From positions 1-58,956 of the IMG/VR virus record IMGVR_UViG_3300046683_000093: a stretch of DNA of 58,956 bases; one strand, 5' to 3'. The notes below the pieces were generated by a model. That model was not told where the DNA came from, did no database searches, and saw nothing but the letters and a program-made list of their open reading frames with translations. Both the position numbers and the translations under genes were made by a program. This document shows, piece after piece, positions 20,735-48,900 of the stretch; position 1 is the stretch's first letter, and each line of letters opens with the position of its first letter. This DNA comes from a virus.

Positions 20735-23020
20735 TTGCCGCAAGCTCTGCCAGGAGTTAGCTCCTCGACTCCCTCTATCGGTGGCTATGGGGGTCAGGGC
20801 GTCGGCAGTTCCGGTAGCTTGCTGCGTGTCGTCAGCCCGGCGCAGCTCGACGAGCAGGACGCCAACGAGTTGGCGCTGTGGTCGCAGGCCAACAAGCCCA
20901 GTTTACCGCCGGATCTGAGCAAATACGTTCGCAACCGTTGGGAGATGTTTCGAAACCATCGAAACACCGGGACTAATTCCCTCAACGAGCGCCTGCTTCG
21001 TGCCCAGCGCATGTTCGAAGGCAAGTACGACCCCTCCAAGATAGCCGAGATCAGGCGGTTTGGCGGGAGTGAAGTCTATTCACGACTCGTCGCGGTCAAG
21101 TGCCGGGGTGCCAACTCCCTCTTAAGAGACGTTTATCTGGGTGCCCAGAAGCCGTGGGTGATCGACGCCCAGCCTGACCCGCCGATACCCGAGGAAATTA
21201 CCATGTCGGTGATGCGCCTCGTCCAGCAGGAGACGCAGGCGGCTCAAGCGCAGGGGCAACCGCCCGATCCCGAGGCGGAACACCAGCGGTTGTTCGACCT
21301 GATGTACCAAGCGCAGCAGGCGGCGCGGCGTCAGGCGATGCGACAGGCCGAGGAAGCGTCCAACCGGGTCGAGGACACTCTCCGTAACGGTCACTTTTAC
21401 GACGCGTTGGCTGAGTTTCTGGCGGATTTACCGCAATTTCCCTTTGCGTGCATAAAAGGGCCGGTGGTCAAGATGGTTCCGCGCCTGACGTGGAACCAGG
21501 GTAAGCCCTCGATCCAGCAATTACCGCAGATGTTCTGGGAACGGGTCGACCCGTTCAACATTTACTGGACCCCTGGTGCTGCTCGCTTCGACCAGTGTGA
21601 GGTGATCGAGCGAAAACATCTCACCCGCACGGATCTAAACGATCTGATCGACCTTCCCGGCTACGATCAAATAGCCGTGAGGGGTGCGTTGCAAGATTAT
21701 GCCAACGGGTTGCGGGATTGGCTCGACGCACCCGACACCGAGAACGCCATAACGGCGGGCAGAGAAGATCCGAACACTAACCGATCCAATATGATTGACG
21801 CCATCGAGTACCACGGCAACGTCCAAGGGCAGCTTTTGTTGGATCAAGGCGTTTCCAAGGATTTGATACCTGATTTAGACCGTGAGTATAACGTCCAGAC
21901 CTGGGTAGTCGGCCGTCATGTGCTCAAAACACAACTTAACCCCTCTCCACGGCAACGGCATCCATATTTTATTACCAGCTTCGAGAAGGTCGCGGGAACT
22001 GTGGCCGGGCATGGTCTTCCAGATATCCTCGAAGACATGCAGGAGGTCGCGAACGCCGCTTTACGTTCTCTTGTTAACAATCTTGCTATCTCTTCTGGCC
22101 CTCAAGTCGTCATCAACGATGATCGGCTAGCGCCAACCGAGAACTCGGACCAGTTGTACCCCTGGAAACGCTGGCACGTCACCGACGACCCGATGGGGAA
22201 CAACTCTAAGGAGCCGATTTCGTTTTTTCAGCCGCAGTCTAACTCCCAAGAACTGTTAATGGTGTACGACAAGATTAATAATATTGCCGATGATATATCT
22301 GCGATACCGAGATATACAACAGGTGAGAGTTTGTCGGGCGGTGCGGGTAGGACGGCGTCGGGTTTGTCGATGTTGATGAACAACGCCTCGAAAATTCTCC
22401 AAACCGTCGCGTCAAATATCGATATCGACGTGATGGAGCCGTGTCTGACCCAGCTTTACGACATGCTGATGCTAACTGACGATTCCGGTCTGCTGTCGGG
22501 CCAGGAACAGATCGTCGTGAACGGCGTCAACGTCGCGGTGCAAAAAGAAACCGAGCGCCAGAAGCAGATTCAGTTCCTGCAGATCACCGCCAACCCCGTT
22601 GACGCGCAGATTATGGGTGTCGCAGGCCGTGCCAAGGTTCTTCGCGCTGTTGCTTCTAACTTGGGTATGCCCGACGACGTCGTGCCCGACGATCAGACCA
22701 TCCAGCACAAGGAAAAAGAGCAGGAACAGCAGAAACAGGTGCTGATGGCGGCGCAGTTGGGCCAGATGCAGGCGGCGCAAGGGGGCGGTGGTGGACCGGG
22801 CGGCCCACTAGCTAGTGGGAAGATGCCCCCAATAGGCCCACAGCCCTCGGCGGCCGACGGGGGTGGGCCACCTACTAATCCTCAAGGTGCCCCTGCAAGC
22901 CCTCCTGGGGGCGCTGGAGAGCAGGGACCGATACCGGGGGCACGGATGGCACCCGACGGCAAGCACTACGTCCCTGACCACCAGAGGCCGGGGAAATACC
23001 TTCAGGTGGTACCTCGGTAG
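20735..23020 (+). CDS. Portal protein (761 aa)
   Basis: TTG start at 20735 with AGGAGG 5 nt upstream. Core features of podovirus portals: an acidic dodecamer-forming body, YFITSFEKVAGTVAGHGLPD near residue 410-430 and LEDMQEVANAALRSL just after. The C-terminal 100 residues are Gln-rich, then Gly/Pro-rich, probably disordered. A palindrome copy near the end reads GGPLASGK. It begins the late operon. Opposite orientation to the terminase genes is unusual. Confidence 0.93.
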   Translation: MPQALPGVSSSTPSIGGYGGQGVGSSGSLLRVVSPAQLDEQDANELALWSQANKPSLPPDLSKYVRNRWEMFRNHRNTGTNSLNERLLRAQRMFEGKYDPSKIAEIRRFGGSEVYSRLVAVKCRGANSLLRDVYLGAQKPWVIDAQPDPPIPEEITMSVMRLVQQETQAAQAQGQPPDPEAEHQRLFDLMYQAQQAARRQAMRQAEEASNRVEDTLRNGHFYDALAEFLADLPQFPFACIKGPVVKMVPRLTWNQGKPSIQQLPQMFWERVDPFNIYWTPGAARFDQCEVIERKHLTRTDLNDLIDLPGYDQIAVRGALQDYANGLRDWLDAPDTENAITAGREDPNTNRSNMIDAIEYHGNVQGQLLLDQGVSKDLIPDLDREYNVQTWVVGRHVLKTQLNPSPRQRHPYFITSFEKVAGTVAGHGLPDILEDMQEVANAALRSLVNNLAISSGPQVVINDDRLAPTENSDQLYPWKRWHVTDDPMGNNSKEPISFFQPQSNSQELLMVYDKINNIADDISAIPRYTTGESLSGGAGRTASGLSMLMNNASKILQTVASNIDIDVMEPCLTQLYDMLMLTDDSGLLSGQEQIVVNGVNVAVQKETERQKQIQFLQITANPVDAQIMGVAGRAKVLRAVASNLGMPDDVVPDDQTIQHKEKEQEQQKQVLMAAQLGQMQAAQGGGGGPGGPLASGKMPPIGPQPSAADGGGPPTNPQGAPASPPGGAGEQGPIPGARMAPDGKHYVPDHQRPGKYLQVVPR
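22806..22817. repeat. Palindrome CACTAGCTAGTG
   Basis: Exact copy inside portal, Leu-Ala-Ser frame, about 200 nt before the next start. Confidence 0.95.
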
Positions 23021-24307
23021 ATGCCGGGTTACCGCCTTGAACCTGTCGATTTCGACCCGTGGGATTCCGGCCGGTCGATGGCACCCACCGACATCGCGCC
23101 TTTAACTAACGTTTCCGAGGCAGTGCGGGGTTACCCCGGTCGCGTCGCGTCAGGTGAGATATTGCGCGGTGCCACCCAAGGCGGCTACGATCCGGCTAGA
23201 ACCCCTGCCGAGAACGCGGTCAGCCCACAGGGTATTCAGCAGGCCATCGATATTGGCTCGGGCGTTATGGGCGGCGGTCTGTCGGTTAAAGGCGCTGGTC
23301 CGAACGTTACTCCTTTGACCCGCCCGCGCACTTATGAGGCGGCGCAGGGCGACGCTCGTGCCGCTGTCGCTGAGCCGCGCGGTTACGCCTTGGATATCGG
23401 TGAGCGGGGTGCTGAGATGGCACCCTTTGGGAATGTCCCCGAACATTCTATGAGCCAGCCTAGAGGCCCAGCGCAGCCGTTGCGTCCTGGCGAGGCGTTA
23501 CCGGAGGGGACGCAGCTTACTCCGCTGGAACCGATCAACACTAACCAGCCGACACATCCTCTGTCGGGACAGTACCGTCTAATGCCCGCGTTCACCAAGA
23601 AGGACCAATGGTCGATCATCGACCCGCGCGGCGAGATTATGTTCCGCTCGCCTGACAAGGCTACCACCCAGAAGGTTTTTGATTTTGTTAACAAAGGAAC
23701 TACGGGGCTGGCTGTCGGCGGTGGGGCGTTGGCGGTGGGTAATCAGGCATATGCCGGTCAGCCATTTAATACTACTTTGCCCGACCCCATTACCGAGCAG
23801 GACCGGTTCGATATCGCCACTCATCGGATGAAGCCGCCCGACGTGCCGCCGTCGCAACCGCAGGATTGGTCGATCCCCGGCGTCGAGTTGCAGGGCGGAT
23901 GGTCGAGGGACACGATGTCGGGTAAGCCGCAGCCGCCTAATATCGATCTCAGGTATCGCTATAATCTTCCGGTAGGCCCGCAATCCCAGGCCGAGCCGCA
24001 GGGATACGACCTTCAGGAGGTCGACCACGACCCGTTCACGCCGGGGGTACAGACGTCTGGATACGAGCGGGTTGTCGGCGAAGCGTCGAAGCCTTACCCC
24101 AAGGACGTTCAGGATTTCTATGATTTTGTGCAGTCTTATCCCCGGCAGATCCCCTTCACGCCGCCGCAGGCGATACCGACGCAGTCTTGGTCCTTCGGCA
24201 ACAACGCACCGGACGCGACACCGACGAGATTTTCTGATATAGCCCCACCACTGAATTACTATCAACCTCTGTCCAACACCAACGGAGTGCCCACCTATGG
24301 CGGATAA
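23021..24307 (+). CDS. Unknown Pro/Gly-rich virion-region protein (428 aa)
   Basis: ATG immediately follows the portal stop. The phrase GYRLEPVDFDPWD at the N-terminus returns as GYDLQEVDHDPFT near residue 330, a possible internal repeat. A central segment (DQWSIIDPRGEIMFRSPD, about 190-215) looks folded; the rest is Pro-rich. Possibly a minor head or ejection protein. Confidence 0.7.
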   Translation: MPGYRLEPVDFDPWDSGRSMAPTDIAPLTNVSEAVRGYPGRVASGEILRGATQGGYDPARTPAENAVSPQGIQQAIDIGSGVMGGGLSVKGAGPNVTPLTRPRTYEAAQGDARAAVAEPRGYALDIGERGAEMAPFGNVPEHSMSQPRGPAQPLRPGEALPEGTQLTPLEPINTNQPTHPLSGQYRLMPAFTKKDQWSIIDPRGEIMFRSPDKATTQKVFDFVNKGTTGLAVGGGALAVGNQAYAGQPFNTTLPDPITEQDRFDIATHRMKPPDVPPSQPQDWSIPGVELQGGWSRDTMSGKPQPPNIDLRYRYNLPVGPQSQAEPQGYDLQEVDHDPFTPGVQTSGYERVVGEASKPYPKDVQDFYDFVQSYPRQIPFTPPQAIPTQSWSFGNNAPDATPTRFSDIAPPLNYYQPLSNTNGVPTYGG

Positions 24308-24515
24308 TTATACCAAGGGTTCATCCATCGCAGGTGTGACCGGCAAGACGGTCAGCACGGGTACGATGGAGATGACCAAGGGCGGCGGGTCTGGCGGCAA
24401 CATGTCGGGTCCGACCGGGTCGAGCCGGATGTACCCAAAGGGTGCGCTCCGGGTCAACGACAGCCTCAACCCAATGGACTGCCCAACGACTACGATCTAC
24501 GTCGGCGGTGTGTGA
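24297..24515 (+). CDS. Small Gly/Ser-rich protein (72 aa)
   Basis: Overlaps the previous gene by 11 nt. Gly/Ser/Thr-rich with SSRMYPKGALRVNDSLNP and a Cys near the end. Similar short proteins occur beside capsid genes; role unknown. Confidence 0.6.
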   Translation: MADNYTKGSSIAGVTGKTVSTGTMEMTKGGGSGGNMSGPTGSSRMYPKGALRVNDSLNPMDCPTTTIYVGGV

Positions 24516-24537
24516 ACTTTCTTTAGGGGGGATTACG

Positions 24538-25356
24538 ATGCGTAGAACCTTGCTGGTTATGTCGGTGGTGGCAGGTCTGCTGTTTGCCCACGCCTCGGCG
24601 CAAGCCGACACGTTTGTTACCCTTGGCGGTGTTCAGTGGAATACTACCAACAGCGGCTCGCTGTCGCTGAGCAACTTTATTCCTGGCGGCAACCAGCCGC
24701 AAAACGCACCTTGTATCATTTGCGGTGCTAACCAGCCGCAGCAGCCGGCGGGGTTTGGTTATAACGACTACAGCAATGCAGGCAACCTAAGCACTATCTC
24801 TGCCTTCAGCGATCAGGGCAATGGTGGGCGAAATACGCTCCCCGACGACGTGTTCGCCACGGGTTACCAAGTCGGCGCAGGTTCTCCCCTCTTGGCGTTC
24901 CTATTGCTGAACGGCGACAACCCAAACAATTTGAGCTTTTCAGTTGGCATCGACATCAACGACAGCAACAACCCGCAAACACTCAACTCGTTCTGGTTCT
25001 TGAACCTCACCACGCACACCGTGTTGGCGAGCTTCACGGGCGGCGCGACCGGGAACGTCCCTGACCAGAACAACGGCACCGGGTTTCCTGACTACACTTT
25101 GTCGGGCTTCAACCTGACAAATCAGGATATCCACGTCGGCGACACCGTCCTGTTCCTCGCGCGCATGAGTAACTTGAATGATGGACCAGACAGTTTTTTT
25201 GTCGAAGCCGCCCCGGCAGCAGATGTTCCAGAGCCTAACAGTCTATGGATGCTGGGTAGTATGTTATCAATCGGCGGCATTGCCGGTTGGTGGAAGCGTC
25301 GTAAGAATCAACAAGGCGAGACGGAATCCGTCGAAACTCGACTTAGCTTGACATAA
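24538..25356 (+). CDS. PEP-CTERM sorting-signal protein (272 aa)
   Basis: ATG at 24538 follows GGGGGGATTACG. An N-terminal signal peptide (RRTLLVMSVVAGLLFAHASA, cleavage near AQA-D) is followed by an Asn/Gly/Thr-rich body and a C-terminal tripartite signal: VPEP (about residue 230), a hydrophobic span (SLWMLGSMLSIGGIAGWW) and the basic cluster KRRK. This is the PEP-CTERM/exosortase pattern for export and surface processing in Gram-negative bacteria. The phage encodes no exosortase in this window, so host machinery would be needed. It sits in the late operon between portal and scaffold. A role in modifying the host surface is inference. Confidence 0.88.
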   Translation: MRRTLLVMSVVAGLLFAHASAQADTFVTLGGVQWNTTNSGSLSLSNFIPGGNQPQNAPCIICGANQPQQPAGFGYNDYSNAGNLSTISAFSDQGNGGRNTLPDDVFATGYQVGAGSPLLAFLLLNGDNPNNLSFSVGIDINDSNNPQTLNSFWFLNLTTHTVLASFTGGATGNVPDQNNGTGFPDYTLSGFNLTNQDIHVGDTVLFLARMSNLNDGPDSFFVEAAPAADVPEPNSLWMLGSMLSIGGIAGWWKRRKNQQGETESVETRLSLT

Positions 25357-25407: not shown

Positions 25408-25635
25408 ATGGCTAAGAAGGAAGTCTTTGTCGGCGGTCAGCCCGGCCAAACTGAGGATCACGGCACGGTCGTGGGCCGTCGGGGCGCAGGATTAAATACT
25501 AAGACTGGCGGCGATCCGATCCTGCATTCGTTCAACCACTACGGCAAGTCAGGCGTACCCGACTCGCCGGGGATGCCGCCAAGTACGGGGATGCCGCCGA
25601 TAATGGGTGGGATCAGGTCGTATCGGGGGTTTTAG
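25408..25635 (+). CDS. Small Gly/Pro-rich protein (75 aa)
   Basis: AAGGAGAG precedes ATG. Reads MAKKEVFVGGQPGQTED with PSTGMPP near the C-terminus, a phrase that returns in the 39355 gene. Probable minor virion protein. Confidence 0.7.
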   Translation: MAKKEVFVGGQPGQTEDHGTVVGRRGAGLNTKTGGDPILHSFNHYGKSGVPDSPGMPPSTGMPPIMGGIRSYRGF

Positions 25636-25917
25636 TTGTCGCTGAATCTGGGTACCGACGCTCTCGATGCCTTAGCTAGTCTGCGGGGCAACGCCGAGTT
25701 TCGTGAGTTTCATAATAAGTTAGGTGAGATAGTTAACCAGTTCAGCAATGCTGCTTTGGAACCTGGGGATGGTGCGGCACGGGATGATAAATGTGGATAC
25801 GCCCGCGCCTTGCGTGATATTTGGATCGCCATTGAGTCGGCTGTGACAAACGAGAAATATAACGCCGTGAAGAAGCCAGGGCCGGTTCAGACCAAAGCCA
25901 GGGCATATAGTCCATGA
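25636..25917 (+). CDS. Small helical protein (93 aa)
   Basis: TTG start immediately after the previous stop. Helical, acidic N-terminal half (LGTDALDALASLRGNAEF). Ends overlapping the scaffold start (ATGA). Unknown. Confidence 0.7.
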   Translation: MSLNLGTDALDALASLRGNAEFREFHNKLGEIVNQFSNAALEPGDGAARDDKCGYARALRDIWIAIESAVTNEKYNAVKKPGPVQTKARAYSP

Positions 25918-26993
25918 GTGACGCTAAAAATAACGACGAGTACCAGCCGGTTATACCACGGGCGGTGCGGGAACAATCCGAGCGGGCTGATCAGATTGCC
26001 CGCGAGTTAGGGGTTGCCAATACGCCGGGGCTTGCGGAATACCAAGCCGAACAAGCGAACCCCACCACTGGCGGCGAGGCTGACGCTTCCCCCCCATCGG
26101 TACCCACCGAGCAGCCTTCTGCTGGTGGTGAGGGCTATCAACAGGATACTTGGGAGCAGCGTTATCGCACGCTCCAGGGTAAGTATGATGCCGAGATACC
26201 TTCGCTAAGGGGGCAGGTTACCCAGCTTCAGACGTTGCTGGCGACTATGCAGTCCGCACCGTCGGCTCCGGTTTATCAAACCCCGGCAGAGCGATATTCG
26301 CCGCCGACTCCGATCACCCCTGAAGACCGTGAGATGTGGGGTGACGATCTTCCACAAGCAGTCAGTCGCTGGGCTGAAAGCTCACTCGGTGAGCGGTTTA
26401 ACCGTCTTGAGTATGAGAACCAGCAGTTACGCGACCAACTCAATAACGTCGCCCAAGCGCAGGGTCATACCCAGGAAACGTTGACTCAGCAACAAGCCGC
26501 TGCAGCCTTGGATCGTGACCCGGATATCGGGCCGCATTGGCGCAGAATTAACAGCGACGACGGTTTTATAGCTTGGCTCAACCAGCCAGATCCGTTCTCG
26601 GGGCATCTTCGAATGAATTTGCTTCGTGACGCCTATGCCCAAGGTGATGTATATCGAACCGGGCAGTTCTTTCGTTCCTACCTGACGGGGCATACCGCAC
26701 CATCTGGAGGGGTGATCAGATCCCAAACCGGGGCAAACGGCACTTACCGAAATGGTAGTGACCACGCCACGGCGGGCAATGTGAACCTCGCTAGCTTGGT
26801 GGCTCCGGGGCGGTCTACCGTCTCGGGTAACAGCGGCGCTTCACCGGAGAAACGCAATTGGACCAATCAGGAGATTGGCGCGTTCTATCGGGATGTGAAC
26901 CGTGGAATGTATCGGGGTCGTGACGCCGAAAAGCTGAACATCGAAACCGATATCATCGCAGCCGCTCGCGAAGGACGCGTCTTCAGCAACTAA
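25914..26993 (+). CDS. Putative scaffolding protein (359 aa)
   Basis: Directly upstream of the coat gene, acidic N-terminal half with a coiled coil (YRTLQGKYDAEIPSLRGQV and LEYENQQLRDQLNNVA), Pro/Gln-rich spacers and a basic C-terminus; these are the usual features of podovirus scaffolds. No catalytic motif. Confidence 0.8.
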   Translation: MSDAKNNDEYQPVIPRAVREQSERADQIARELGVANTPGLAEYQAEQANPTTGGEADASPPSVPTEQPSAGGEGYQQDTWEQRYRTLQGKYDAEIPSLRGQVTQLQTLLATMQSAPSAPVYQTPAERYSPPTPITPEDREMWGDDLPQAVSRWAESSLGERFNRLEYENQQLRDQLNNVAQAQGHTQETLTQQQAAAALDRDPDIGPHWRRINSDDGFIAWLNQPDPFSGHLRMNLLRDAYAQGDVYRTGQFFRSYLTGHTAPSGGVIRSQTGANGTYRNGSDHATAGNVNLASLVAPGRSTVSGNSGASPEKRNWTNQEIGAFYRDVNRGMYRGRDAEKLNIETDIIAAAREGRVFSN

Positions 26994-27012: not shown

Positions 27013-27963
27013 ATGGCTGTTACCGTAGGTACCCCGTATGCGGGTTCGTCGGCTTCGCCTGCCTATTCGGGTGCAGCGGCAGGCGGCGTGTTCGTTCCTG
27101 AAATTTGGAGCGGCAAACTTATCGAGAAGTTCTACTCAGCAACCGTGCTCAGCGCGATTGCCAATACCGACTACGAGGGAGAGATCTCTCAGAAGGGTGA
27201 CAAGGTTAAGATCCGCACCAAGCCGACGATCACCATTCGCGATTATCAGATCGATATGAATCTGACGGTAGATCGTCCTTCGTCCAGCACGGTCGAGCTA
27301 ACTATCGACTATGCCAAGTACTTTAATTTGGTCCTCGACGACGTGATGGAACGCCAGTCGGATATGAACCTCTTGTCGATGTGGTCTGACGATGCTGCCG
27401 AGCAGCTTAAAATTACCATCGATACCGGCGTCCTGGCCCTGTTGGATGCGGGTGTTGATGCTAACAATAAGGGTATTACTGCTGGCAGAATTTCCGATCT
27501 TAATCTTGGTGCTACTGCTGCTCCTGTGTCGTTGACTGCCCTCAATGTCGTCGACGCTATCGTCGACATGGGCACGGTCCTCGACGAGCAGAATATCCCC
27601 GAGACGGGCCGTTGGCTGGTGATCCCGCCTTGGGTTGCCGGCCTCGTCAAGAAGTCGGATCTACGCAACGCATCCATCTCGGGTGATGGCGTCTCGCTGG
27701 TTCGCAACGGCCGTCTAGGCATGATCGACCGGTTCACCCTCTACAGCTCCAACCTCTTGCCCACGGCGGTGGAAGGTGCGGCGAGTGCAACCCGCATCTT
27801 TGGCGGGCACCCACACGGTCTGACTTTCGCGTCTCAGATTACCAAGGTCGAGACGATGCGGTCGGAGTCGACGTTTGGTACCCTGCTCCGTGGCCTTCAG
27901 GTCTACGGCGCGAAGGTGCTCGACGGTATCGCCCTGGTCGAGTTGTACGCGATCCGGGGTTAG
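27013..27963 (+). CDS. Major capsid protein (316 aa)
   Basis: Coat protein of the HK97-fold type found in podoviruses: FVPEIWSGKLIEKFYSAT at the N-terminus, EISQKGDKVKIRTKPT near 60, and GRLGMIDRFTLYSSN in the second half. Position after scaffold and before adaptor proteins supports the call. Start with GGAGACGTAG upstream. Confidence 0.93.
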   Translation: MAVTVGTPYAGSSASPAYSGAAAGGVFVPEIWSGKLIEKFYSATVLSAIANTDYEGEISQKGDKVKIRTKPTITIRDYQIDMNLTVDRPSSSTVELTIDYAKYFNLVLDDVMERQSDMNLLSMWSDDAAEQLKITIDTGVLALLDAGVDANNKGITAGRISDLNLGATAAPVSLTALNVVDAIVDMGTVLDEQNIPETGRWLVIPPWVAGLVKKSDLRNASISGDGVSLVRNGRLGMIDRFTLYSSNLLPTAVEGAASATRIFGGHPHGLTFASQITKVETMRSESTFGTLLRGLQVYGAKVLDGIALVELYAIRG

Positions 27964-29003: not shown

Positions 29004-29746
29004 GCGGCCCTTTGACCTACCGGGTTACCGATAGATCGTCGTTAGTCGCGCCGCCGCAGGCATCCAAGGAATGGACCGATGTGTCGATGGTGGTGTTTGA
29101 TTTCACTTCGTGGCTGGGGTCCGACCAATATCTTGCCGTGGCGTCGGACGTTCTGTTCCAGACCGCGCCGCAGAGCACCAACGTAGGCGTCTGGGTGCCG
29201 TTTCCGGGTGGGTGCTGCTCGGGTACCCAGGCAGATGTCCCGCTGCCGGCTGACGTAAATCCGATCACCCTGGCCGGGTTGGCGATGCTGCCGGGCGGCA
29301 AGAAGGTCGAGTTGTCCCTTGGTAATGGGACACCCGGCCTTGCCTATCTGGCGTCGTTTTTCGTGGCGGCCGGACCCTATGCGCGCCGTAAGGAAGTCGG
29401 GGTTATCATGACCTGTTTCGCCCTTAGACCTTTTACCGGGGTGGTTCTTCCGCCGCCACCGCCGGTATTTGTTATTGGTGGCAGTGGACCGTTGCCGGTG
29501 GGCACCTCGGGGCCGATCAATATTAATAATACTACCAACGCCCCGATTACGATAACCCTCCCGGCTAGCCCGGTGTCCGGTCAGACGTTGTATTTCAAGG
29601 ATGTGGCGGGTAACGCGGGTACCTATCAGATTACCATTTTGCCGTCTGTCGGTTCCATGATCGACAACCGCACCGAGTTCTATATGTACCAGAACTATCA
29701 GGCCGTCGAGATGTATTGGACCGGCACTGGTTGGGGAGTACGCTGA
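29000..29746 (+). CDS. Virion protein with C-terminal beta domain (248 aa)
   Basis: TTG start overlaps the previous stop. After a Pro-rich linker (VLPPPPPVFVI) at about 155, the last 90 residues are beta-rich (PITITLPASPVSG, YFKDVAGNAGTYQITI), typical of small fibre or tail-attachment domains. A similar domain makes up the 32081 gene. Confidence 0.65.
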   Translation: MSGPLTYRVTDRSSLVAPPQASKEWTDVSMVVFDFTSWLGSDQYLAVASDVLFQTAPQSTNVGVWVPFPGGCCSGTQADVPLPADVNPITLAGLAMLPGGKKVELSLGNGTPGLAYLASFFVAAGPYARRKEVGVIMTCFALRPFTGVVLPPPPPVFVIGGSGPLPVGTSGPININNTTNAPITITLPASPVSGQTLYFKDVAGNAGTYQITILPSVGSMIDNRTEFYMYQNYQAVEMYWTGTGWGVR

Positions 29747-31458
29747 TGCGTTGGTTGTTTATACCGTTATTGTTTTTGCTGGCCGGCTCCGCTCAGGCGG
29801 CGTACGACCCGGCGGCGAACATTAAGGCTTATGGCGCGGTGTGCAACGGTACCGCCGACGACGGGGCGAAGATAAATCAGGCAATAGCTGCCAACGCAGT
29901 GACCTGGGGGCCGGATAAACAGACCTGTTTTAGTACTGTCACGATAACGGTTCCTGCCGGTAAGACCCTGCGTGGCGACAACGTTGCCATCTTCGGGTTA
30001 GACACGACATCGCCCGGCGGGTTTACCATTAAGTGCGCGCTCACGGTGAACCCATGCGTGCGGGTCAATGGCGGGTTGATTAATGTTGGGGTTGATCGGG
30101 TGACACCGGGAACCCCGCCTGCCGGCACGACCGGGGTGGCCCTTAACCGGACGGACCCGTCGCTTAATACGGGTGGAATGATTGTTATTGAGGGCGTTGC
30201 TTCGTGGAACAGTCCGATAGGTTTTTCGATCGGGGTGCCGGATGCCGCTGCGACTCCACCTGCTCTGGGTGGCGGGTTTGGTGCGTTCTTTAATCGTATT
30301 AACACTTGTAAGATCAGTGATACGCATTTGTTGATGGCTAGTTGGGCCGAGACGCGGATCAATATGGGTCGGTTTGGTTGCTACTATGATGTGCCGGGAA
30401 ATAACTATATTAAGATTACCGGACCCGGTTGGTCGAACAGCCTCAATGTGGTGAACAGCCAGTTTAATACTGGGCCGTCTTCTTTACTTCAGTGTTTCAT
30501 ACGATTTGACGGGCCGTTTGAAGATCCGCCGGGTACACCTGTACCGCCAGAAGGCTGGTTTTTTGATACGGTCCACGTCGAGAACCACAATCATGGTATT
30601 TGCACGAACTCAAGCGCGCCTAACATACAGGAACTACAAATTTCCAATAGTGATTTTTGGGGCGGCTTCGGCGATTGGGGGAGTGAGTTCTTTTTTCTTG
30701 ATCCGATAACAACGTTGGATCGGGTGAACATATCCAACAGCGAGTTTAAGAAGCACGGGATGTATACGTTAGCCCCGGCAGCGGCGGCTACCGACGTTCG
30801 TATATCTAATTCCCGGTTCGCCACTAACACCGAAGAAGTCGATATTAGCACCGCCCTTGGGTTTACTTTTACTGCGAAGCCCGGTTCACGGTTGATGATG
30901 ACCGGCAATCGGATAGGTGTGTTAAGTGTTCTGGGGGATTTCGGCACTGGTCCTACGGCTGGTGCAGGACTTATAACCGGCACCCTCGGTAACAACCAAA
31001 TCAATTATCACGCTACTGGTCCGATCTCTATCGATGTACCAGGGCATAACTTGATTTCGAGCAACTGTGCGGTGGGGTTACAGTTCGGCGGCGCGGCTGT
31101 AGGCGTGACCTATGCTCAACGATCGTGTTATTGGCAACGCCATGGTGATCAGGTTTCATTTAGTTTTTACATAGCGTTGACGAATAAAGGAACTTCGACT
31201 GGTGGAGCGACGGTTACCGGCTTGCCGTTTCAGGCGAGTGCCGGTATGGGAGTCGGTAACTCGATATTGTATGCAGTTAATATGACGGCGTTGTCGGCAG
31301 AGGGAGCGTATGTGCTGGCTTCGACGGGTGCGGGACAGACATATATGAATTTGTACCAAGGGTTGGCGACTGGGCTGCAGTCTATTTTACAATCGGCTTT
31401 TACAAATACAAGCGTTATTCAAGGGACGGTTGTGTACATGGTAGACGGTGGGCACTAG
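29746..31458 (+). CDS. Beta-helix tailspike-like protein with signal peptide (570 aa)
   Basis: ATG at 29746 overlaps the previous stop (TGATG). The first 18 residues, RWLFIPLLFLLAGSAQA, form a signal peptide with AQA-A cleavage. Next is the pectate-lyase-3 type entry DPAANIKAYGAVCNGTADDG, then repeated beta strands with ISNS/ISNSEF rungs near 300-370. Such right-handed beta-helices are tailspike depolymerases. A signal peptide on a virion protein is unusual and suggests export instead of, or before, assembly. Confidence 0.8.
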   Translation: MRWLFIPLLFLLAGSAQAAYDPAANIKAYGAVCNGTADDGAKINQAIAANAVTWGPDKQTCFSTVTITVPAGKTLRGDNVAIFGLDTTSPGGFTIKCALTVNPCVRVNGGLINVGVDRVTPGTPPAGTTGVALNRTDPSLNTGGMIVIEGVASWNSPIGFSIGVPDAAATPPALGGGFGAFFNRINTCKISDTHLLMASWAETRINMGRFGCYYDVPGNNYIKITGPGWSNSLNVVNSQFNTGPSSLLQCFIRFDGPFEDPPGTPVPPEGWFFDTVHVENHNHGICTNSSAPNIQELQISNSDFWGGFGDWGSEFFFLDPITTLDRVNISNSEFKKHGMYTLAPAAAATDVRISNSRFATNTEEVDISTALGFTFTAKPGSRLMMTGNRIGVLSVLGDFGTGPTAGAGLITGTLGNNQINYHATGPISIDVPGHNLISSNCAVGLQFGGAAVGVTYAQRSCYWQRHGDQVSFSFYIALTNKGTSTGGATVTGLPFQASAGMGVGNSILYAVNMTALSAEGAYVLASTGAGQTYMNLYQGLATGLQSILQSAFTNTSVIQGTVVYMVDGGH

Positions 31459-40287: not shown

Positions 40288-42921
40288 ATGTCTGATCCCC
40301 GAAACGATCCCGAATATTTCACGCCGTTACCGCCACCGCCGTCTGCGCCCGCACCTGCGCCCGCACAGGAGCAACAGGCGATACCGGCTGCGCCTGCTCC
40401 CGCTGCTGCTCCCGCTGCTGCTCCCGCTCCCGCTCCCGCTGGGCCTGCACCTGTTCAGCGCCCCGGTTCGTATTATTCATACACGCCCGAAGATCAGGAC
40501 ATTACGCCGCCTACACCGGACCAGCAGGCCATACCAGCCCCACTAGCTAGTGGGCCTACGGGACAGCCGGCGACGCCGTCTGGGGTCGCCCCTGGTGCAG
40601 CCACTGCTGGGGCACGGGCACTGCCTGACGTGGGTACGCCCGCCCCTTCTGCGGGGTCTGCGCCGTCTACTGGGGTTGGCGACGGGTCGTTGCCGTTTGA
40701 TCCGAGTAAGGTTCTAGCTGTTGGCGACAGCCTGACGGCACACCTGTCGCAGTACAGCGGTGTGCCCGGCGGCTGGTCGGGCAAGGTCAAGAACTATCAG
40801 CCCGGCAATACCTCGATAGCCGGTGCGGACCCGAGCGGTATTTTTGATCTGATAAACGACATACCCGAGTCGCGGATCAAAGGTCAGAACGTTGTTCTCT
40901 CTACCGGCGCGTCGAATATCGGCGGGCCGATGACGCCAAAAGACGTCGCGGCAATCGTTCATCAGATTGATCTGCTTCGTACCAAGGGTGCGAATAGCAT
41001 TACCGTGATGGGCGTCGGCACGGCTGTCGACCCTCGTACCAATGGTGCGCTTGGTAGGATTGCACGCGACAACGGTGCTATTTTTAGCGGACCGTTGGAC
41101 CCTAAGAATTTATCCGACGGCATTCATGCTAAGAACTACAACCAAGTTCGTGATCAAATTTACGGGGTTGCTAGCTCGGCATTGAGTGGGGGTGGCGGTC
41201 AAGGTGGTGGCGGTAGTGGACCAGTAACACTTCCATTAACGCCCGCGCCTTTGCCGGTTGGTCCTGACGGTCAACCAGTCCAACGTTTACCGTCGATACA
41301 GACGACGGCGTTACCAACTGGTACTACGGTCCAAGGGCAAGGTGGGCAACCACAAGGACAGGGACAGCAACAAGCGCCGATATACAACCCTGGCTCGGAC
41401 CCGCGCGGTAAGGTGCCGGTACTTCGTGCTGCCGCACAAAAATATGGAATTAATCCTGACCTGATGGTGCTGGCTGCGGCAACAGAAGGGTTGTTTACAT
41501 TTAAGGGCGACGCTAACCAGGGTGGTTCGTACGGCGCTATGCAGCTTAACATGCTGCCCGGCAGTGTCGGCGATCAGATGCTGAAACAAACCGGCATCGA
41601 CCCACGGCTTCCGCAAAACGAAGATGCGACTATCGATTTTGCGGCACGGTATATCGCCCAGCATGGCTGGGGCGCATGGCACGGTCCGAGAAATATTGGT
41701 ATCACTGGGTTTATGGGTGTCGGCGGTAATCCAGTACCGGGGGATGTCTTTACCCGAGGTTACCGAAGTGGCGGTCGTGGCGGTGCACCGGCTTATGGTG
41801 CTGGTAGCCAAGCTGGTTATGACAGTGACGGTAGTGGTGCCAGCCTCGCGCGGTTTCAGCAGCGCGTCCAGGGTAAGGACTCACAAGGTTTCCTGACCGA
41901 CGTTGCCGCGACACAGACCGCCCCCGGTTTCGACGGGTGGATGGCGAAGTGGATGACGTTGCAAAATCGCGTTGTCTTAGACGCTATCGTTAACGGGCAT
42001 GCCGATCAGGTGCAGCACATCGAGGACGCGTTCACCCGCATGGGCTATCAGGAGATGAACCGTAACCTGATGAATATGGATATGGCTTTAGGTAGAGGTG
42101 ACATTAAAGGTGCTGCTGCCTATGGTACGTTGGCTTATGCAAACTTCCCTGACGGCGCTCACGTTAAGTTTCAGACTGACGGTAAGGGTAACCTCTTCGC
42201 GCAGCGCATAGGTGAAGCTAATGGTCAGCCGTTAGGTGACCCCATTCCGGTGACACAAGACGCTATCCGAAGGCAGATGCGGTTTACTTCTAATCCACAA
42301 ACTTATCAGAAATTCCTGGCGGAACAGCAGGCGTCGTCGATGAAGGCGCAGCTTGACGGAGCGCACGCGGATTATTTCAGGAACCTCAACGCCACTCGTG
42401 AGCGGATGAACCAACTGACACGGCAGTCGGAAGAACGGCGTAGCATTATCACGGGTGAATATGGTCTGGCACGGGCACGGGAATCCGGTGCAAACAAAGC
42501 CGAGACTGGGCTTATGACCGAACCCCAGAAGAATACGCTGTTGGAAAAAACCGACGAAGCGATTGTCGGCGGGGGGCAGATTGGCGACATGAAGCTGGAT
42601 ACACCGGAAGGGCAAAAGGCGTATCGCTCGTCGGCTAACATACTGTCGAGTGTTCTTAACCGTAGTAACCGTCAGTTCTCCCAGCCGCAACTGATGGCTT
42701 TGATCCACTCGATAGCCAAGAAAGAGGTAGAACCGGCACCGACGACGACGCCGGGGGTTGTTGCATTGGTCGACAAGAAGAGTGGGCAGATCGTCGCCGC
42801 TCTCGACGAAGCGATAGCTGTACGTTCGTTGGGTTACGATCCCAGCAAATATCAGCAACCGGCTGCTGCCACTGCTCCACCAACAGTTCAGCAACCGCAA
42901 GCCGTACCGGCGGGGCCATAA
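40288..42921 (+). CDS. SGNH-hydrolase plus transglycosylase-like virion protein (877 aa)
   Basis: A Pro/Ala-rich linker (1-140) is followed by an SGNH hydrolase: VLAVGDSLTAHL (GDS near 146), STGASNIGG near 210. After a second Gln/Pro linker comes a lysozyme-like domain (about 380-470): KYGINPDLMVLAAATEG, then GSYGAMQLNM. A helical C-terminus follows. Combining a lipase/esterase-type and a peptidoglycan-lytic domain fits envelope penetration during DNA entry. Family assignments are by motif only. Confidence 0.82.
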   Translation: MSDPRNDPEYFTPLPPPPSAPAPAPAQEQQAIPAAPAPAAAPAAAPAPAPAGPAPVQRPGSYYSYTPEDQDITPPTPDQQAIPAPLASGPTGQPATPSGVAPGAATAGARALPDVGTPAPSAGSAPSTGVGDGSLPFDPSKVLAVGDSLTAHLSQYSGVPGGWSGKVKNYQPGNTSIAGADPSGIFDLINDIPESRIKGQNVVLSTGASNIGGPMTPKDVAAIVHQIDLLRTKGANSITVMGVGTAVDPRTNGALGRIARDNGAIFSGPLDPKNLSDGIHAKNYNQVRDQIYGVASSALSGGGGQGGGGSGPVTLPLTPAPLPVGPDGQPVQRLPSIQTTALPTGTTVQGQGGQPQGQGQQQAPIYNPGSDPRGKVPVLRAAAQKYGINPDLMVLAAATEGLFTFKGDANQGGSYGAMQLNMLPGSVGDQMLKQTGIDPRLPQNEDATIDFAARYIAQHGWGAWHGPRNIGITGFMGVGGNPVPGDVFTRGYRSGGRGGAPAYGAGSQAGYDSDGSGASLARFQQRVQGKDSQGFLTDVAATQTAPGFDGWMAKWMTLQNRVVLDAIVNGHADQVQHIEDAFTRMGYQEMNRNLMNMDMALGRGDIKGAAAYGTLAYANFPDGAHVKFQTDGKGNLFAQRIGEANGQPLGDPIPVTQDAIRRQMRFTSNPQTYQKFLAEQQASSMKAQLDGAHADYFRNLNATRERMNQLTRQSEERRSIITGEYGLARARESGANKAETGLMTEPQKNTLLEKTDEAIVGGGQIGDMKLDTPEGQKAYRSSANILSSVLNRSNRQFSQPQLMALIHSIAKKEVEPAPTTTPGVVALVDKKSGQIVAALDEAIAVRSLGYDPSKYQQPAAATAPPTVQQPQAVPAGP
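40541..40552. repeat. Palindrome CACTAGCTAGTG
   Basis: Exact copy in the Pro-rich linker, Leu-Ala-Ser frame. Confidence 0.95.
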
Positions 42922-45900
42922 TGTCCGACGAGAGGATCGATCCGCTACTTAACGACCCCGGCAATGAGCCGATGCCAGGGGCGGGGGTTAGTGACGAGCA
43001 GCTTCAGCGTGAGTTCGACGCTGCCTCTGCTGTCCCTCAACGTGCCCAACAGCAAACAGAACAGGCGCTGCCGACGGAGCAGCAGCCAGCACCCCAACAA
43101 GCACCACAACAACAGGCGCTACCATTAACTCCGCAAGCGCCACCACCAGCATATCAGTTAGCTGGCCCGACGCAGTCGATAACCTTCACGGGTGTGGGTG
43201 GAGGACAACAGGCACAACGCCCATCGATATCCCAGAAGGTCGACGCGCGTACGCCGCACTATCAGTTAGCCGGTGCGCCACAGCCGATAGGCGGTGACTT
43301 TGCCGGGCCGTCGCCAAGCTGGACTTCCGACTTTGGTAACGAACTGAAGATAGGCGGCGTCGGGTTAGCTCACGACGTTGTCAACTTCGCGCAGTGGGGG
43401 TTGGGTCAGTTAGGTGCACAGGGTGCGTCGGATTACCTCAAGACCCAGCGTGATCAGTTAGGTCAGACGCTTGAGCGCGCCGTCAACGAACTCAGCCCAG
43501 AAGACCGCAAGGCGATGGGGTCGTCGGCGTTTGGAATCACCGCGTTGGGTGGTCAGGTCGACCCGGCTACGGGCCGGGTGCCGTCGCCTTCTGATGTCGG
43601 CTGGGGCAGTTATCTTAGAACCACTATAACTCCGCAGATACCAGCGGCACTGTTGTTCTTTGTCCCTGGCGGCATCATGGGCAAGGTCGCCACGATGGCG
43701 GCCAAGGGTATCGGCGTCGGCGAGAAGGCGGCGGCGGTAGCAACTCGACTGCCTATGGTAGCAACGCCGGGGGAGATAGGCGCTGCCGGTGCGGCCGCGC
43801 AGGCTGGTGTGGTTGCACCCATAGGCACCGCCGCCCGCGTCGGCACGACAGTTGGTTTAGGTGGCGCAGTCCAGGCTGGCAGCGCCCTTGAGCTATTAGA
43901 ACAAGAACTCAAGAACATGCCGCAGGCGCAGGCGGATGCTAACCCTGCGTACAAGGCGTTCCGCGCACAGGGTATGAATGACAGCCAAGCCCGCGAAGCC
44001 ATGTTCAAGGGTGCTTCCGGCGCGTTGGCAGCGGCACAGTTTGGCATCGGCGGGGCGACGGCCGGCATCCTCGGCGAGATCTTCAGGATGCCCTTTGGCC
44101 GTGGCCGTGAGACAGTCGGTGGCAGGCTCGGCCTTGAGCCGACGACGCGAACAGGCCAAGCGGCCCTTGGTGCGGCCGAGGGCGGCTTGGCGATGGGAGG
44201 GCAAGTCGGTGGCGGCCTTGCAACCCAGCAGGCTCTCGACCCCACCCGTACCCAAGGCGTCGACTGGGGTCAAGTGGCCCAGGCTACGGGTGCTGGTGCC
44301 CTTGGCGGCGCTCTTATGGGGGGTGCTGTTGGCGGTGTTGTGGGTGGTCGCGCTCGCCCTGCCGAGATAGCAAAGCCGTCGCCTACGACTGGTTTAGATC
44401 CCGCCACGGAGTTGGCAGCGCGGATACAACAAGGTCAAACTCAAGCTTTACCTACAGGACGCCGCATCGGCGACACGCCACCGTGGGAGCCACCACGTCA
44501 ACCATTGCCGCCGGGGCCAGAGACACCGGGGTTCTCACCAGCACCTAATCCGCCGCGTACGCCTTTCCAGACGCCGCCTGCTGTACGTCCACCAGAGGGA
44601 CCGCAGCCACCGCCGTCGCCGGTACCGTGGGGTAGGCCGCCGTGGGGTGGGCCAGTACCGGAGCGCACTCTTGGAGGTGAGTTCCCGACGGGAGATCCTC
44701 GTTCTGCATTCACGACACCGCCAACCCAGCGAACGGGAGAAGCACAACCGTTTCCTGCGGCTCGTATGCAGCCAGCGGCACCGACTGAGCAAGCTATCCC
44801 GACAGCGCGTGGCGCAGGCTTTACGATGGCTCCGGGGTCGGAACCGGGTCAGGCTCTTAATCTTGGCGTAACTCGACAGGAGTTTCGGCCGACGGGGCGT
44901 ACGCTTGGGGATGCCGCGCCATGGGATAGACCCGCGCCGCCGGCACCAGAGCCGACGCGTGCACCATTACAAACACCACCAACCCAGCGGGCGGGAGAAC
45001 CGCAACCATTCCCAGCCCAACGCTTACAACCAGTACCGGCGACTGCACCGGCAGCACCAGTTAATCCTCTACGAAGGGCAACGCCGTGGGATACACGGAC
45101 GGCACCGGGTGACTTTGGTCGACTGGAAGTACCGCCCGTCACGTCGGGCGAGGCACCAACACCGAGGTTTCCTGCGCCGGTAAAACCAACAATAGCAACG
45201 CTGCCGGATGGGCGGATTGATCTAACGCAGCTACCTGAACCTACACTACGTGCGTTTGCCAAGGCACAGAAAATAAGTGGCGTCGACGGTGCGACGGTCG
45301 AGGAGGTACGTGAGGCGCTGGATCGAAAACTATACCCAGAGACAGGGCCGGATCGGCAGGACTTACTTGATCGGTTGTCTGAACTCACAGGTAAACCACC
45401 TAGTGATTTCGCCGAGTACAGCCGCCCGACACTGGAGAAGATGGTCCGTGACGAAGAGGCCAAGCCGTCACTAGCTAGTGAGGAGAAAGCTGCCGCACCT
45501 AAAGCCGCCGAGGTGAAGGCGAAGGTTGAGAAGGCTAAGGCGGAACCCGAAGAAGAAAAACGCCCGAGTGAGGGTAAGAGTGCAGTACAGCTTAGGGAAG
45601 CTCTGTTCACCGAGTTTGGTGAAAGCCGAGGCAGTAACATCGGTAAAGGTAAAACCAAGGAATACCTAGCTCGACACTACGACGAGCTTGTCGCCGAACG
45701 AGAAGCCAAAGCCAGCGAGGAGCCGGTTAAACCGACTCCTGCAACGGTACCTACAGGGGAGGGAACGCAGGGTGTCGCGCCTGAGTCACAGGCGTCGCTC
45801 CCCGCTGGCGAAACTGCCACTCGACCAAGCCATGGCATGACGATGGCGGCTCTTAAGGAGTCGCTGATTAAGGATTTCGGTGAGAACAAAGGCTGGGTTC

Positions 45901-48900
45901 GCACCCGTGTAGGTGCGAAGGGACGCATAGAATTAGAAGAGCGTTACGACGAGCTTATGGTGGCGGCTAACAAGGAAGAAGCAGATCAGCAGGCTTTCCT
46001 CAAGGAAAAGAATATTACGTTACCGACACCAAAAGTTCAGCCACTTGTCGCGTTGAAGACTACTACACCCACGCATACAGCCGAAGAGGTAGCTGCGTCG
46101 GTTTCTAAATTACGTAAGCGGGGCACCCCCGAGGCTGAGAGGAAAGCCGAGACTGTCGTCGACGAGGACAAATATAAAACCACTGACGAAATACTTAGCG
46201 AGGAGGTACCGACCGAGGGACCGGCAGAGCCGAGTCTGCAAGTCGAGGAGGAAGGTGCCAGGGGAGGTGTGCGTCGACAGGATCTTACTTCGTGGCAAGA
46301 TCTGGGCGAAGCATCGTTCAAAGAAAAACTTACACCTAATATGGACAACGTCACCAACCGCAAGAAGGCTGGGCGTACCCTCGAAAACTTTGTTCGCTAT
46401 AATAATATGTCGCCCGAAGCCGCCGACTTTATGTGGCGGAACCGGTTTGGTGAGTCACCCAAGGCTGCGATAAAAAGTTTTGGTCAGTACCTCGACGAGC
46501 GTATTGCCTACCTGGGTGACGCTCAGAACTATATAGACCACGCCGGTCGTAGGGACCAAGCCACTGACCCGGCTAAGGTGAAAGCGTTCAATCTGGAGTC
46601 GGCGGCGTTCGACCCGGAGCATGTCGAGTATCTGCGTAAGATGCGCGAGGCGCTGGGTGGTGACGAAGCGGCAGTCAGGGAGTTTGAGGATCTTCAGGCA
46701 AACAGATCTAGGACCGGCAGTGCCGTACTTAATAAGGATGTTAATGTAACCCTCGACCTCGTCGACGAGATGCGGAAGCGCGGGCTTAGCGCGCCACCTT
46801 CGATGCGGGTGATGGACCCGAGAGCCAACGCCCCGGTGACAGGTCTGAACGCCTCGACTAACGGCGTGAACCCACGCCGCCCGCCGAGGGCGCAGGCGTT
46901 CATGGCGCGCATTGCCAACGATCCGTGGATCAGGCAGAACCTGCCCGAAGTCGCACGGCTAGCTGACAGGTATCGTAAGCTGGTGCCCGATCATGTGTTA
47001 GTAATGACACCGGGCGAGTTTCGTTCGCGGTTCCCCGACCGGCCCCAGATACCTCCTGATACACCGGGCCGGTTCGACCCGGTGCACGATGTGATCGTGC
47101 TGAACGACGCTGCCAATTGGGGGCACGAGGGGCGTGCATTAGAGGTGATGATGCATGAGACTAATCATGCAATCACGTCACCTTATTTTGAGCGCCCCAG
47201 GTTATCCCAGCGTGCTATCGATGTCCTTAATGTTATTCGTGACGAGTTTCGTGTCGCGCGTGACGGCCTGTCGGGTGACGATCTGCGTACGTTCGACTAT
47301 GCGCTGAGCGACATCGAAGAGTTCCACACTCACTTGATGACCAGCCCAGTGTTAGAGCGGGTAGCTCGTGCCTTGCCGCCGTCCGATAGGTTTAAGACAC
47401 GGATGGCCGAGTACGGCTATCGGCCCTCAGAGCTTCGTAATATGTGGAACGCCTTTGTCGGCTGGGTTAGGCGCGTCGTCGGGCTTTCACCGCGTGAGGT
47501 AAGCGACACACTGTTCGACCGCATTACCAAACCAGTAAGCGATATCCTCGAATACGCCGGGCAGTCGGAAGTCGGCGCTCGCCGGGCTGGCCCGACGCCG
47601 CACCCGTTCCTCGATAAGTTATACCGAGGCGGCAAGATCCCGACGCAGTTTGAGCAGGCTTACCGTGACGCGGTGCGTCCGCAGTTGGGCTTTCTTAATT
47701 CTGCTGGGCGTACCTTGAGAGAGCAAGCCGAGCGCACTCGCTTTACCGACGAGACGGCGCGGGCTGAAGCGGGGATTAAGATCCGCCCGATTATGTTACA
47801 AGCGATGACGCCCGACGCGATGATCGATAGGTATGGGCCGTCGCATTTCACCACGGGTAGCGGTGAAAATCTTCTCGCCATCGAGCGCGCCGCCGAAAAC
47901 AAGATCAACTCGTTCGGCGACGGGTTTAAGGACACCTACATCTCCAAGGCCCGCGCCTTGATCGACAAGATGTGGGGTAGGCAGGAGGTTCAGAACCTGC
48001 TGGTTGAAGGGACGATGGCTAAGGCCCGTCTCGGTACCAATGATCCCGCCGCCAACGAGCACCTGACGACTGAAGCCGAGATTGGGCAACTTCAGCATCT
48101 TCAACGCAGATATGCCGCCATGCCTGCCGACGAGCAGGCGATCTACCGTGAAGCACGGGATATGTTCAAGGAGATCCACGCCAAGGAACGTCAGGTCCAG
48201 CTAGAAGGTTTAGTCAACGGCGTTTTTGGTGACAACGAAATCACCCACGCTCAACGTGAGGCGTTGATCGAGGCGCTCAAAACCAAGCGCGGTATCGATA
48301 GCGTGATCCAAGACCGGTCCAACGTCGGTCAGATCTTTGGTGAGGCGTGGACCCGCTGGCGGCCCCTCGCGCGGGCAGTGGCTAACTTCCACAACCAGGG
48401 CTTTGTCGAGGGAGACTACTTCCCACTGCGCCGGCATGGTGACTACGTAGTAACTTACGGTGACCGGTCACCGGAGAGTACCGTCCCTTACGGCGTCGAG
48501 ATGTTCGACACGCTGCGTGAGGCACAGCGCCGACAGACCGAGTTGATGGGCGATAACCTCAACCCGAGCGACATCGAGATCAAGTCCCAGAAGCACGCGC
48601 GGGACATGGTGGATTTCTCGTCGGGTTTCCTGCGCGAGATCAACGATAAAATTCGAGACAAGTTTGTCGGCGAGTATCGTAACACGATGCTGGATCTGGT
48701 GGCTAACCAAGCCCTCCAGCACATGTCGAACAGCGAGCGCACCCGCCTCGCCGTGGCGCAGCGGCGCGAGTACATCCAGGGTGCGTCGAAGGATGCGATC
48801 CGCACCATCGCGGGCGACGTCAACGCTGCCGCCTACCGCATGGGCTACGCCGCCCACGCGCCGGAACTGGCGGCGGTGCGGCAGCGCATTACCAACCACA

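Follow-up and report, generated by a model that had tools for sequence, protein, structure and literature searches.

A candidate exosortase substrate encoded among the head genes of an uncultured soil phage

INTRODUCTION

PEP-CTERM proteins are bacterial, and the biology of the exosortases thought to act on them is still thinly tested by experiment. When a phage encodes such a protein between its portal and its major capsid gene, the question arises of what a virus would do with a sorting signal whose presumed reader is an enzyme of its host. We addressed this question for a 58,956-base IMG/VR virus record, the whole of which is referred to here as the window, and for the relatives of its PEP-CTERM protein in other viral contigs.

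RESULTS AND DISCUSSION

The PEP-CTERM gene lies in a probable late operon

The window phage is a soil virus whose hosts are probably Rhizobium-like bacteria. Its major capsid protein and portal are 60% and 53% identical, respectively, to those of Rhizobium phage RHph_TM3_14A, and on the basis of its head genes we consider it a podovirus of the HMO-2011 kind (rhizobiophage-like). The gene of interest (P0001, 272 aa, 24538..25356; identified by ORF calling and a PEP_CTERM HMM) is a real ORF that begins with ATG at 24538 and ends with TAA at 25354-25356. The Shine-Dalgarno-like sequence AGGGGGG (24525..24531) is situated 6 nt before the start codon. This gene, its parts described below and its neighbors are all on the + strand. 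Upstream in the same operon are the portal/head-tail adaptor gene (phrog_332 by PHROGs match, 20735..23020), an ORF for a 428-aa protein without assigned function on the portal side (23021..24307) and, directly adjacent, a small 72-aa ORF (24297..24515). A small 75-aa ORF (25408..25635) follows directly downstream, and beyond it are the gene for a phrog_13678 protein (PHROGs match, 25914..26993), which from its position may be the scaffold, and the major capsid gene (phrog_267 by PHROGs match, 27013..27963). Position, strand and the intergenic gaps of 22 nt upstream and 51 nt downstream support the preliminary description of this locus, which had assigned the gene to the late (capsid) operon. 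As no promoter or terminator signal around the gene exceeded that of shuffled sequences, it is probably transcribed together with the head genes. The same comparison left a promoter of its own, i.e. a moron arrangement, unsupported.

Two other ORFs of the late region deserve mention. Positions 29746-31458 of the window encode a second late-operon protein, which begins much like a signal peptide (MRWLFIPLLFLLAGSAQA) and opens in the manner of a pectate lyase (NIKAYGAVCNGTADDGAKINQAI), and for which Pfam and PHROGs gave no match. A single ORF of 2587 aa occupies positions 42921-50684.

The protein carries a PEP-CTERM sorting signal

The preliminary description had read a full PEP-CTERM architecture from the sequence, and all four of its elements were present. 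A signal peptide spans residues 1-23 (24538..24606; MRRTLLVMSVVAGLLFAHASAQA followed by D), with predicted cleavage between SAQA and D; by sequence, such a signal peptide is also present in the relatives. Near the C-terminus the elements follow in the order PEP motif, transmembrane span and basic cluster: the VPEP motif at residues 230-233 (25225..25236), in which P233 is invariant in 31 relatives, a transmembrane span at residues 234-252 (25237..25293; a helix at 233-258 in our first structural model) and the KRRK cluster at residues 253-256 (25294..25305). A match to PEP-CTERM HMMs, proposed earlier as a check, was obtained with NCBIfam TIGR02595 (20.1 bits over residues 230-256, curated cut-off 16), whereas Pfam PF07589 reached 15.6 bits, short of the 20.7 that it requires.

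The tail that follows KRRK departs from the textbook signal. It is 16 residues long (25306..25353), and the tails of close relatives are short. Fewer than 10 residues follow the basic cluster in 87% of PEP-CTERM proteins, and a few very long C-terminal tails were suspected to be non-functional (Haft et al. 2006, PMC1569441). The window protein resembles known exosortase substrates (TIGR02595, PF07589; PMC1569441) in its signal peptide, PEP motif, transmembrane span and basic cluster, but differs from them in being phage-encoded, in its 16-aa tail and in carrying a strongly conserved passenger that is absent from the bacterial genomes sampled.

The passenger is modeled as a beta-sandwich domain without a recognized family

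An AF2 model built from a 52-row alignment, which replaced an earlier low-confidence model (pLDDT 63), showed the mature passenger domain (residues 25-226, 24610..25215) as a beta-sandwich with a pLDDT of 84.3 and a pTM of 0.86. The cysteine pair C59-x-x-C62 (24712..24723) is invariant in the 52 rows, and both cysteines are lost together in one relative (L062), which suggests that C59 and C62 form a disulfide. No passenger family was recognized by PHROGs, Pfam or PADLOC, and neither a PDB sequence search nor Foldseek with two models returned a match at E≤0.001. Lectin and carbohydrate-binding module resemblances were frequent in the fold search; none was significant and we gave them no weight. 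As no solved structure matched at this threshold, the fold gives no function.

Relatives are encoded by many unrelated phages

Relatives of the protein are encoded on at least 217 viral-contig stretches. A tblastn search of 50,697 phage records recovered no relative, nor did a search of 84,980 bacterial and archaeal genomes with the patterns used, and in 397 Rhizobiales genomes searched with a profile there was nothing beyond a C-terminal local match. From the lack of a relative in the sampled bacterial genomes we conclude that this is not a recent host gene. The preliminary description had called such proteins rarely reported in phages. This agrees with our finding no report of phage-encoded PEP-CTERM proteins in the open-access literature searched, but the protein itself is common in uncultured soil phages.

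Among the first 74 relatives only one, from an independent dataset, shared the neighbors of the window gene, and its arrangement was identical. The other phages included types with HK97-type terminase, protease and portal, with a phrog_146 portal, with a phrog_156 portal or with baseplate and sheath genes, as well as phrog_1216 podoviruses; the carriers thus span unrelated podo-, sipho- and myo-type phages. The gene often adjoins terminase or portal. RHph_TM3_14A, a close relative, has no such gene at this position, and Bradyrhizobium prophages whose terminase is 74-81% identical lack it as well; we therefore rejected the possibility that it belongs to the core of the head module. As most relatives have other neighbors and reside in other phages, and as these close relatives lack the gene, we conclude that it is accessory and travels from phage to phage. 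Three contigs (L020, L025 and L029) have a near-identical PLPA-class gene (see below) between a terminase of one phage type and a portal of a second type, a mixture that may reflect recombination at the PEP-CTERM gene or misassembly.

The signal is conserved and its class follows the passenger

Conservation was assessed with 48 distinct complete members chosen by their passenger domain, and 778 other ORFs of the same contigs served as background. A PxP motif, transmembrane span and basic C-terminus occurred together in 48/48 members, compared with 4/778 background ORFs, where the PxP count includes one-residue variants such as TEP or LEP. Retention of the C-terminal signal by relatives, another check that had been proposed, is therefore evident.

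The tails fell into three classes: PEP (9 members), PLPA (25) and P[GA]P (14). Thus, VPLPA-CTERM (TIGR03370) tails and a VPGP-GAGLPG tail known from Bradyrhizobium are carried by relatives of the passenger in place of PEP. The PLPA-class tails matched TIGR03370 at 16.2-20.5 bits, under the cut-off of 25.35, and the VPGP-GAGLPG members tested matched no NCBIfam model. In a tree built from the passenger without its tail, each tail class formed one side of a single branch, so that two changes account for all of the classes. Phage type, by a coarse typing that left out untyped contigs, changed at least 15 times on the same tree. That tail class tracks the tree and phage type does not is consistent with exchange between phages drawing on a common host pool with one sorting enzyme. 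The dN/dS values were 0.08-0.20 for the passenger and 0.31-0.38 for the signal and tail, which indicates that purifying selection is strong on the passenger and weaker but clear on the signal.

Exosortases occur in a minority of candidate hosts

Exosortases were sought in candidate host groups. PF09721 matched 51/385 sampled alphaproteobacterial genomes (~13%); in the Bradyrhizobium family it matched 8/297. In Bradyrhizobium, the best-sampled candidate genus, TIGR04178 exceeded its cut-off in 29/196 genomes, and an exosortase is present in about 15-17% of species. TIGR02595 PEP-CTERM proteins were found in 22/24 Bradyrhizobium genomes with a strong TIGR04178 (classical) exosortase, versus 3/20 without one, the latter being marginal single matches; the PEP-CTERM/exosortase system of this genus is therefore real. 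We also considered a match between the phage PEP-class tails and those of Bradyrhizobium. This failed, as the sampled Bradyrhizobium tails read PEPSTWAMM and the phage tails VPEPGSL.

The VPGP motif occurred in 0/385 alphaproteobacterial and 4/196 Bradyrhizobium genomes. PF09721 alone had suggested that the four genomes with this P[GA]P-type tail were devoid of exosortase (0/4), a suggestion that was overturned by TIGR04178, which exceeded its cut-off in 4/4. Given its occurrence in 29/196 genomes, the chance of 4/4 is ~4e-4 by a hand calculation with simple combinatorics. The TIGR04178 match is to a divergent protein of the exosortase/archaeosortase family (loci L261-L264; L262:874-1797), in which Cys, Arg and His residues are positioned as expected when judged by eye. 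Its gene lies in an exopolysaccharide locus, next to eps_transp_fam and PrsT-like TPR genes; in three of the genomes (G740, G797 and G830) the closest VPGP protein is encoded 28-42 kb away. These observations, from four genomes only, support a putative pairing of the divergent enzyme with the VPGP tail. When this divergent protein was used as a query against viral contigs, no phage-encoded exosortase emerged.

A late change of the host surface is the favored role

We consider it somewhat more probable than the alternatives taken together that the window protein is a phage-specific secreted surface protein made for the exosortase of the host, and that it changes the cell surface late in infection. 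The protein would be made together with the capsid proteins and exported by Sec, with loss of its signal peptide. The PxP, transmembrane and basic tail would hold it in the inner membrane until the host exosortase acts, presumably by cleavage at the PxP motif, and the beta-sandwich domain could then pass to the outer surface or the exopolysaccharide, where its display would change the surface of the doomed cell. Masking of a receptor or surface glycan is our leading guess as to the effect, albeit a tentative one to which we give less than even weight; related phages would be excluded and progeny kept off sister cells and debris. We prefer masking on the grounds that the gene is accessory and late, that its product is secreted and strongly conserved, and that the phages carrying it probably have hosts in common; moreover, receptor blocking by secreted phage proteins is known. 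Llp of phage T5, a phage-encoded secreted envelope protein that stops further adsorption (PMC9586334), may work in a similar way. It differs in being an early lipoprotein, whereas the window protein has a sorting tail, is encoded in a late head operon and is unrelated in sequence. No lipobox was found in the window protein: no Cys follows the signal peptide, and the only cysteines are at 59 and 62. A role in coating the host or blocking superinfection, as originally proposed, is plausible.

An exosortase-sorted surface protein is supported by the HMM score above cut-off, the signal in 48/48 members, the tail classes, the selection, the lack of relatives in the bacterial genomes searched, the confident model of the beta-domain and the presence of exosortases in plausible hosts. 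Counting against it are the lack of an exosortase in most sampled Rhizobiales (the Bradyrhizobium family, by PF09721), the mismatch between the phage PEP class and PEPSTWAMM, the 16-residue tail, the subthreshold PF07589 score, and the absence of a structural or sequence relative that points to function. Its most serious rivals are a role in the matrix and simple anchoring in the inner membrane. An exosortase substrate at work in a biofilm or exopolysaccharide matrix could aggregate infected cells or loosen the matrix and so, instead of masking a receptor, alter the access of progeny to new hosts. Host PEP-CTERM proteins take part in floc formation alongside exopolysaccharide (Gao et al. 2018, cited in PMC12642866; PMC9850573). 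The Bradyrhizobium exosortase genes lie in exopolysaccharide loci, and lectin-like folds recurred among our non-significant matches. We nevertheless find a matrix role unlikely, because no enzyme or binding family was recognized and a lytic cell is short of time for matrix building. Slightly less likely still is an ordinary type I inner-membrane protein with a periplasmic domain, which uses no exosortase and might, for example, assist lysis or act on DNA injection, as in superinfection exclusion of the HK97 gp15 type. The topology, the long tail of the window copy and the several candidate host genera that mostly lack exosortase would all suit such an anchor; a PxP motif, however, is needless for anchoring, yet it was kept in every member, in sorting-signal classes, and many passengers unrelated to this one end in such a tail.

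The two remaining explanations are much weaker. The position between portal and scaffold, or beside terminase or portal in other phages, would suit a component of the virion or its assembly, but a cleavable signal peptide exports the protein from the cytoplasm, where heads are assembled, and its absence from RHph_TM3_14A and the related prophages shows that the gene is dispensable for assembly; we regard this as very improbable. Least probable of all is a stray host surface gene, acquired by recent transduction or joined on in a chimeric assembly. That PEP-CTERM proteins are bacterial and that three contigs join the markers of two phage types could be cited in its favor, but the arrangement recurs identically in an independent dataset (L002), and relatives of the gene, which are under purifying selection, number in the hundreds in viral contigs, with none in the bacterial genomes searched.

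VPGP-tailed proteins may form a wider viral class

ORFs with the motif VPGPxxGAGxPG (loci L132-L250, e.g. L157, L176 and L204) were collected from viral contigs by a DNA pattern; having been chosen by motif, these loci were not counted toward conservation. Among the matches listed, the motif was 14-30 residues from the C-terminus in all 138 ORFs, 124/138 had a signal-peptide-like start, and the ORFs formed at least 18 passenger clusters, the largest of which contained the passenger of the window. Hallmark homologs were found in 48/132 loci with a small query set, the rest being viral by the classification of IMG/VR. It is conceivable, at somewhat less than even confidence, that phage-specific surface proteins using the host exosortase constitute a whole class in alphaproteobacterial soil phages. 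The passenger would circulate within host pools defined by their sorting enzyme, and the tail class would report the exosortase type, including an undescribed divergent exosortase that reads VPGP-GAGLPG.

If our interpretation is correct, phages exploit a bacterial surface-sorting pathway in a manner unreported for viruses in the literature searched. The compact, conserved phage substrate with its three natural tail classes would make the matching of enzyme and signal directly testable, tail class would help to predict the hosts of soil phages that have not been cultured, and the VPGP tail would gain a candidate enzyme.

Other proteins accompany these genes. A second, unrelated secreted protein with a PEP or PGP tail is encoded beside or near a relative in three contigs (L009:9180-9929, L012:3380-4102 and L065:3318-4010). 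In two phage types, a protein of 116-140 aa (cluster c3, L017-L057; e.g. L045:1839-2210) is encoded downstream of the PEP-CTERM gene. Some contigs carry two VPGP-tailed genes in tandem.
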